Origin: Tropicibacter sp. R16_0
Lineage (GTDB): Bacteria > Pseudomonadota > Alphaproteobacteria > Rhodobacterales > Rhodobacteraceae
Direction: 5' to 3'
NCBI RefSeq assembly: GCF_017743935.1
Contig: NZ_JAGHRE010000004.1
Location: 248,001-312,000, forward strand
Length of the DNA stretch: 64,000 nt
Position 1 is the stretch's first letter; each line of letters starts with the position of its first letter. Shown in pieces: positions 5,042 through 6,418 of the stretch. A model generated the notes under the pieces. The model made no database searches. It had not been told where the DNA came from and was given only the letters and a program-made list of their open reading frames with translations. Position numbers and translations under genes: made by a program.

Positions 5042-5204
5042 TGAGGTTACCCTAAAACGTTCGCGGCTCTTCCTATCCTCAATTGTAAGGAATGTGAAAC
5101 AATTACCCTGCGATAGACACGAGGGCGTGAGACGATTGCAGTAAATCTTGTCGAATGCGTTTATCGGTCTCAAGTGTAGGACACGGAATTAGGAGGGCGC
5201 CACG

Positions 5205-5891
5205 ATGGCTCAGCTGAAAAAGATCCTGCTGGTGGATGACGACGAAGACCTGCGCGAAGCGCTGAGCGAGCAGCTCGTGATGACCGAAGACTTCGACGTG
5301 TTCGAGGCAAACGATGGCCAAAGCGCCATGGAACGCGTCAAAGAGGCGCTGTATGATCTGGTGATCCTCGACGTTGGCCTGCCTGACACCGATGGGCGCG
5401 AGCTGTGCCGCTTGATGCGCAAACAGGGTGTCAAAAGCCCGATCCTGATGCTGACGGGTCACGATGGCGATGCCGATACCATCCTGGGTCTGGATGCGGG
5501 TGCCAACGACTACGTCACCAAACCGTTCAAATTCCCGGTGCTACTGGCCCGTATCCGTGCACAGCTGCGCCAGCACGAGCAATCTGAGGATGCCGTATTC
5601 ACGCTTGGGCCGTATACGTTCAAGCCAGCGATGAAGATGTTGATCACCGAAGACGACCGCAAGATCCGCCTGACCGAGAAAGAGACGAACATCCTCAAGT
5701 TCCTCTACCGGTCGACGGATGGCGTGGTGGCGCGTGATGTGCTGCTGCACGAGGTCTGGGGCTACAACGCGGGTGTTACAACTCACACCCTGGAAACTCA
5801 CATCTATCGCCTGCGCCAAAAGATCGAGCCTGATCCGTCGAACGCGCGCCTGCTGGTGACGGAATCCGGCGGCTACCGTCTGGTGGCCTAA
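5205..5891 (+). CDS. OmpR/PhoB-family response regulator (CenR-like)
   Basis: A 228-residue two-domain response regulator. The receiver domain spans 1-120, with acidic pocket DDDED, phospho-acceptor Asp56 in LVILDVGLPD, MLTGHD and the conserved Lys in YVTKPF. The C-terminal winged helix spans about 130-228, with LTEKETNILKFL, LLHEVWGY and THTLETHIYRLRQKIEPD. It is an orphan here: no histidine kinase is adjacent. The receiver start and C-terminus resemble the alphaproteobacterial envelope regulator CenR, but that assignment is from memory. ATG is preceded by AGGAGG with an 8-base spacer. Confidence 0.9.
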   Translation: MAQLKKILLVDDDEDLREALSEQLVMTEDFDVFEANDGQSAMERVKEALYDLVILDVGLPDTDGRELCRLMRKQGVKSPILMLTGHDGDADTILGLDAGANDYVTKPFKFPVLLARIRAQLRQHEQSEDAVFTLGPYTFKPAMKMLITEDDRKIRLTEKETNILKFLYRSTDGVVARDVLLHEVWGYNAGVTTHTLETHIYRLRQKIEPDPSNARLLVTESGGYRLVA

Positions 5892-5895
5892 GACA

Positions 5896-5909
5896 TTGAC
5901 CCAGATCAA
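5896..5909 (+). promoter_or_regulatory. FNR/FnrL-type binding box
   Basis: TTGACCCAGATCAA matches the FNR/FnrL consensus TTGAT-N4-ATCAA at 9 of 10 specified positions. It starts 5 bases after the response-regulator stop. Its centre (5902.5) would place a class II start site near 5944, just before a compact hairpin-plus-terminator transcript. The next protein gene is beyond that terminator, so the natural target is the small RNA. Confidence 0.6.
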
Positions 5910-5943
5910 AGCCGCATTGCTGCTGCATCTTTAGGGTCACCTT

Positions 5944-6017
5944 ATCCCGCACATGTCCGGGTTATGACATGTACCTCCCTGTTGGACTGGGCCGGGCCTT
6001 GCGCCCGGTCTTTTTTT
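5944..6017 (+). ncRNA. Candidate small RNA with anti-Shine-Dalgarno motif
   Basis: The intergenic segment has three parts in order: a perfect 7-bp hairpin (ACATGTC 5951-5957 with GACATGT 5966-5972), a single-stranded ACCTCCCT (5973-5980) complementary to Shine-Dalgarno sequences, and an intrinsic terminator (5990-6017) with seven Ts. This hairpin / CCUCC loop / terminator layout is shared with alphaproteobacterial sRNA families that carry anti-SD motifs (CcsR and alpha-r14 types). The 5' end at about 5944 is inferred from the FNR-type box at -41.5 and is uncertain. No open reading frame of note lies inside. It may instead be the processed 3' UTR of the response-regulator mRNA. Confidence 0.55.
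5990..6017 (+). terminator. Rho-independent terminator
   Basis: An 8-bp stem (5990-5997 with 6003-6010, one G-U pair), a 5-nt loop, then TTTTTTT (6011-6017). It ends the response-regulator transcript and/or the candidate sRNA. Confidence 0.9.
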
Positions 6018-6097
6018 GTCCGCATGGGGAGCTGTGACGGCGACAGATTCTGCGCTATCTTCTGACGCATCTGATTTTCAACACAGTGGATACCCCC

Positions 6098-6418
6098 ATG
6101 AAACGACTTTCGACTTTGTCCTTTATTGGCGCCATGCTGATTGCCGGCGCCGCTTCGGCTTGCCCGTGGGCTTCGGGCGACTATGCGTTCAGCGAGGCTG
6201 GCATCTATGGTGATTTCACCGTCAATGCCGATTGTACAGAAATGGTTTGGGATCGCTCAAGCGATGGTCCGGAAACAGCAGCGCTTGAACGCACGAAGCA
6301 CGGTTGGAAAGGTGAGCTTGAAAAGGCTGACGTTGAGTTGCTGGAGAACGGCGAAAACCTGCGCGTCACGGGCAACGGCGGTGCGATGCGGCAGGTCCGG
6401 GCCGAGCGCAAGAATTAA
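6098..6418 (+). CDS. Small secreted protein of unknown function
   Basis: A 106-residue protein with a clear Sec signal peptide (MKRLSTLSFIGAMLIAGAAS, cleavage near ASA-CPW). The mature part of about 80 residues has two cysteines (CPW near the N-terminus and NADCTEMVW) that could form a disulfide in the periplasm. I do not recognise the family. ATG 6098 is preferred over an upstream in-frame GTG (6086) because it starts directly with the signal peptide and has AGTGGA 8 bases upstream. It stands alone, with a terminator before it and a convergent methyltransferase after it. Confidence 0.7.
   Translation: MKRLSTLSFIGAMLIAGAASACPWASGDYAFSEAGIYGDFTVNADCTEMVWDRSSDGPETAALERTKHGWKGELEKADVELLENGENLRVTGNGGAMRQVRAERKN

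Follow-up and report, generated by a model that had tools for sequence, protein, structure and literature searches.

The window, which is the whole 64-kb stretch of the Tropicibacter sp. R16_0 genome that was analysed, was scanned against the Rfam models. The sole match above threshold was SorX (RF02784), which was matched over its full length (model positions 1–73 of 73) at window positions 5944–6016 on the plus strand and scored 92.1 bits, where the gathering score is 46.6 (E = 1.2e-21). The element is SorX, a known stress-response sRNA. It is situated between the ORF of an OmpR-type response regulator and the next likely ORF (6098–6418), and an earlier note, made on this DNA from the sequence alone, had correctly placed an sRNA gene between two protein genes here. 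The parts of the locus are as follows.

5205–5891, plus strand: OmpR-type response regulator gene, the SorX host gene (RSP_0847-like), with stop codon TAA at 5889–5891
5896–5909, plus strand: FNR-type box TTGACCCAGATCAA, centre 5902.5, at −41.5 from 5944
5932–5937, plus strand: candidate −10 element TAGGGT, separated from the box by 22 bp and matching TATAAT at 3 of 6 positions
5944–6017, plus strand: SorX sRNA; the first model position and the predicted transcription start both fall on 5944
5951–5972, plus strand: 5′ hairpin of 7 bp with a loop of 8 (arms 5951–5957 and 5966–5972)
5973–5987, plus strand: anti-Shine–Dalgarno seed ACCTCCCTGTTGGAC, left unpaired by both the MFE and the centroid fold
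5989–6017, plus strand: intrinsic terminator (stem 5989–6011, seven Ts at 6011–6017)

The FNR-type box, the perfect 7-bp hairpin, the exposed anti-Shine–Dalgarno motif and the intrinsic terminator with seven Ts had all been described in the earlier note, and all are present. The box scores 9/10 to TTGAT-N4-ATCAA, as had been stated, and 10/10 to TTGAY-N4-RTCAA. The regulator contains Response_reg and Trans_reg_C domains; its stop codon ends at 5891, 53 nt before 5944.

Upstream of the regulator, between it and a divergent ribA-like gene (approximately 5085–5204), conserved blocks were recognized by eye in an alignment of 45 panel loci (TGAAACA; ACACG...GCGTGA, an inverted repeat; GCAAatCTTG). 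These blocks may hold the promoter of the host gene.

Comparison with known sRNAs

SorX of Rhodobacter sphaeroides, formerly RSs2461 (PMC5036791), is reported as a 75-nt RNA processed from the 3′ UTR of the mRNA of an OmpR-type regulator, with RNase E processing and Hfq binding. Singlet oxygen and superoxide induce it in dependence on RpoHI/RpoHII, and its target is potA, which encodes a polyamine transporter subunit (PMC6238624, PMC8625941, PMC9438474, PMC8307010, PMC5036791, PMC3320616). SorX is a standard example of a 3′ UTR-derived sRNA and has been reviewed as such (PMC9438474).

In genome G051 SorX was located at 2598225–2598299, one base from the published position 2,598,224, and the corresponding locus (L019) was therefore taken to be that of R. 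sphaeroides 2.4.1. The regulator upstream of SorX at this locus and that of the window are 86.8% identical. The two RNAs have the same kind of host gene, the same seed and the same terminator. The regulator gene in the window is thus the counterpart of the published SorX host gene, which ties SorX to its neighbour here and leaves the earlier statement that the RNA is `not tied to any neighbour gene' unsupported.

CcsR1–4 and alpha-r14, the families to which the RNA had been likened, carry a CCUCC anti-Shine–Dalgarno motif. A permissive cmscan of 5800–6120 listed 10 families up to E = 5, among which neither CcsR nor alpha-r14 was found, and on this listing the assignment was rejected (for CcsR, provided that Rfam has a model of that name). 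FnrS was not among the 10 families either. SorY (RF02651) ranked second at the locus with 33.1 bits, far short of its gathering score of 111. CcsR1–4 are reported to derive from the 3′ UTR of ccaF1, and SorY of R. sphaeroides to be transcribed from its own promoter (PMC6238624, PMC8625941, PMC9438474, PMC8307010, PMC5036791, PMC3320616). CcsR1–4 resemble SorX in their 3′ UTR origin and in the CCUCC motif but differ in the host gene and in having no match up to E = 5, whereas SorY shares the core UACCUCCCUGUUGGACU and the terminator with the SorX of the window but differs in its own promoter and fits another locus of the source genome better (L002, 59.5 bits). FnrS of enterobacteria, an sRNA reported to be under direct FNR control (PMC4263372), is comparable in its control only.

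The RNA at L002 (1501–1587, minus strand; C22:246623-246709) follows a LysR-type ORF of the same orientation. Its SorY score of 59.5 bits is below the cutoff of 111 and its SorX score of 51.1 bits is above the cutoff; no FNR box better than 8/10 was found within 250 nt upstream. At L003 (1501–1565, minus strand; C22:320047-320111) a third RNA-like element was observed; it contains CTTCCTCCCTGTTAGAC as well as a terminator and scores 34 bits with SorX, below the cutoff.

Structure of the RNA

The fold of the SorX sequence of the window gave z = −1.78, with nine of 200 shuffles folding equally well, so that for this single sequence it is only mildly unusual. In the alignment of 27 SorX sequences, 99.5% of the cells of the two helices pair. 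Changes on both sides were found in 10 of the 15 pairs (shuffled mean 3.7), including all seven pairs of the 5′ hairpin. The CCUCCC stretch lies between the two helices and takes part in no pairing in either the MFE or the centroid structure; CCTCCCTGTTGGA is invariant in the 27 sequences.

Conservation of the FNR-type box

Four FNR sites with at most one mismatch are present in the window, against 1.84 expected, and 13 of 100 shuffles reach four; within the window alone, the box is not above chance. The whole source genome contains 38 perfect TTGAYN4RTCAA sites compared with five for the reversed control pattern. It is only by comparison with relatives that the SorX box rises above chance.

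SorX was matched at E ≤ 0.001 in 141 of 149 genomes of the family and above the cutoff in 117. A panel was drawn from 90 of these 117, mostly with one genome per genus; three without the regulator and four duplicates (the named copies of which carry boxes of 8, 9, <8 and <8 of 10) were removed, leaving 83. A larger set of 170 loci was reduced to 140 distinct regulator–SorX gaps by removing three without a regulator in the stretch (L034, L223, L224), 21 without a seed and six duplicates. For the 21, a seed search over 400 nt that allowed up to two mismatches gave no match; all belonged to 80 named loci found via the regulator protein alone, and some lie near contig ends. In the other 59 of these 80 loci the SorX seed was found within 400 nt behind the stop codon.

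A box of at least 9/10 is present between the regulator and SorX in 32 of the 83 panel genomes (shuffled gaps: mean 1.18, maximum 5) and a perfect box in 27 (mean 0.07, maximum 2), which upholds the proposed link between an FNR-type box and the sRNA. Control stretches of equal length contained a box of at least 9/10 in none of 83 cases inside the regulator gene and in one of 76 behind the terminator. The 140 gaps include 52 in which the box reaches at least 9/10, 41 of these being perfect. The check on close relatives proposed in the earlier note came out in its favour: in a genome of the same genus (G073, locus L014) the 14-base box is identical and the motif is present, and 32 panel genomes have a good box. 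Even so, 51 of the 83 panel loci lack a box that scores 9/10 or more. An own promoter is thus not general, and in those loci processing or another promoter must suffice.

Of the 52 loci with a box, 43 have its centre 71–78 nt from the seed, whereas the distance from the stop codon to the box ranges from −4 to 91. Conservation of the box on account of the coding end of the regulator was ruled out by this variation.

Geometry of the proposed promoter

The box centre lies at −41.5 from the 5′ end of SorX and the candidate −10 element begins 22 bp behind the box, which is the spacing of a class II promoter; the start predicted from the box, 5944, is the first base of SorX. In Dinoroseobacter shibae, nosR2 and hemA3 are reported to have FNR-type sites at a distance of 41.5 bp from the start (PMC5398030). 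When the box centre was set to −41.5, a TA beginning at −13, −12 or −11 was found in 30 of the 32 panel loci with a box (1000 shuffles: mean 5.9, maximum 15), with a peak at −12 (TA at −12/−11) in 20 of 32. A box of at least 8/10 together with a TA at −13 to −11 occurs in 37 of the 83 panel loci, R. sphaeroides included (shuffles: mean 1.16, maximum 5). TAGGGT itself is a poor −10 element, and no promoter was listed at TAGGGT or 5944 in a scan with the σ70 consensus.

The window has a strong box (10/10) at class II spacing from the 5′ end of SorX. In R. sphaeroides, by contrast, the gap contains only TTGCGTGAGATCAA (8/10), which overlaps the regulator stop codon, is followed after 22 bp by TATAAA and lies about 29 nt further upstream of SorX. 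The start predicted from this FNR-like site is position 1472 of L019; the published precursor end, 2,598,182, corresponds to position 1458. The two do not coincide, which, like the weakness of this site, counts against the promoter.

SorX might instead arise solely by processing of the 3′ UTR of the regulator transcript, with the box serving otherwise, for example as a roadblock or a relic. The published biogenesis in R. sphaeroides agrees with this explanation, as do the 51 panel loci without a good box, in which SorX is made otherwise. Neither a roadblock nor a relic, however, needs a box whose spacing is held constant relative to SorX but varies relative to the stop codon of the regulator, or a TA at −10 spacing in 30 of 32 loci, and we consider the explanation improbable.

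Candidate regulators at the box

The source genome encodes FnrL (455.7 bits against a cutoff of 300). The 14 bases of the SorX box also occur at C36:99720-99733, directly before the fnrL match (98970–99689, minus strand). A ChIP-seq study of FnrL in R. sphaeroides under anoxygenic photosynthetic growth reports binding in the presumed promoters of RSs0019 and of SorX (RSs2461); an effect of FnrL on the two RNAs was not established because they were absent from the array (PMC4263372). Beyond this report, nothing on an FNR promoter at SorX was found in the accessible text of the open-licence literature, and the word SorX is absent from a survey of Ruegeria pomeroyi sRNAs (PMC4809877).

The box alone cannot separate FnrL from other Crp/FNR regulators. 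An own promoter could be real yet used by another member of this family (Dnr, NnrR or a CrpK-like protein): the source genome encodes further Crp/FNR-type proteins, FnrL and CrpK are reported to have many sites in common in R. sphaeroides (PMC4263372), and one panel locus, L190, has a perfect box, while no full FnrL match was found in its genome (84% complete). The binding reported at RSs2461 by ChIP-seq is nevertheless that of FnrL (PMC4263372), and a box is missing from three of the four panel loci whose genomes gave no full match to FnrL, L190 being the fourth, although this sample is very small. L224, also from a genome without FnrL, has no regulator in the stretch and was left out of this comparison. 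Use of the promoter by another regulator is judged a little less probable still than production by processing alone.

Distribution and lineage variants

Among 190 genomes from the class, 30 match SorX at E ≤ 1e-6 and three score above the cutoff, all three from the Rhodobacteraceae. SorX-like matches of 36–45 bits, below the cutoff, were seen in 27 genomes from other families of the class and perhaps represent a wider set of CCUCC sRNAs. Two adjacent above-cutoff matches on one strand, suggestive of a tandem arrangement of SorX, were observed in each of three genomes, at G148:C3:795407-795620, G022:C183:9526-9823 and G170:C3:381885-382107.

In L085 and L087 a perfect box lies only 45–46 nt before the seed, and no 5′ hairpin was found in a stem search allowing no mismatch. 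As read from the sequence, L085 has a TA at −12/−11 and a predicted start about 4 nt before the seed, while the nearest TA in L087 is some 3 nt further on. The 5′ hairpin appears to have been dropped in L085, whose RNA would then begin some 4 nt ahead of the seed.

A single origin of the box was not supported on a tree of the regulator with 82 rows, from which L023 of the panel was left out for its shortness: the box label needs 24 changes, against a shuffled mean of 25.4–25.5, with 146–160 of 500 shuffles as low. Since 38 of the 79 inner branches are open and the starred branches force only five changes, the value of 24 is no count of gains and losses. One starred branch, with R. sphaeroides among its 12 rows, lacks any box that reaches 9/10.

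A pattern search in the 88 gaps without a good box listed 12 rows, nine of which were seen by eye to have TTATTG followed after exactly 17 bp by TA (L072, L102, L103, L109, L113, L171, L181, L186 and L025). This is possibly another promoter.

Candidate targets

Four potA-like genes score above the cutoff in the source genome. Pairing of SorX with one of them, L158, was calculated at −16.3 kcal/mol; three of 50 window genes were as good or better, and the pairing thus does not stand out from that of other genes of the window.

The ten-base complement of the seed, AACAGGGAGG, occurs 12 times in the source genome, three times within the sRNAs themselves. Six of the other nine sites lie 5–9 nt before ORFs of more than 200 amino acids (L146, L150, L152, L153, L155 and L156; 204–498 amino acids or more). 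GGAGG is itself the ribosome-binding motif, and these sites are therefore candidate targets and not evidence of targeting.

Discussion

The RNA belongs to the SorX family, its gene lies behind an OmpR-type regulator gene, and the FNR box with a TA at −12/−11 is conserved in many relatives. From the arrangement of these elements we infer that SorX is probably made by two routes: from the processed tail of the regulator mRNA and from an own class II FnrL promoter. A chance box beside a chance hairpin and terminator, for which the 1.84 boxes with at most one mismatch expected in the window could be cited, is next to negligible as an explanation, being refuted by the relatives through the full-length SorX match and the conserved box and spacing.

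By the first of the two routes, the tail of the regulator mRNA would be processed to SorX as in R. sphaeroides. By the second, FnrL, active at low oxygen, would bind at −41.5 and RNA polymerase would use TAGGGT; the primary transcript would then start at 5944 and would already have the 5′ end of mature SorX. With either origin, the exposed CCUCCC would be expected to pair with the Shine–Dalgarno regions of target mRNAs and to block their translation.

A broader proposal, which we hold to be evenly balanced, is that the same SorX 5′ end can be supplied by processing (stress input) or by a class II FnrL promoter (low-oxygen input), and that lineages across the Rhodobacteraceae have repeatedly switched between the two. 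In that case an oxidative-stress RNA would be stocked before oxygen returns.

The sRNA SorX is known; an own FNR-type promoter with the geometry to give the mature RNA directly was not found settled in print. If many genera use an FNR promoter that gives the mature 5′ end, the locus would offer a testable case of how mRNA tails that are processed and sRNA genes that stand alone turn into each other. A functional reading would then also be gained for the binding of FnrL at SorX seen by ChIP in 2014, for which no effect had been measured, and the low-oxygen and photo-oxidative stress programmes would be linked.
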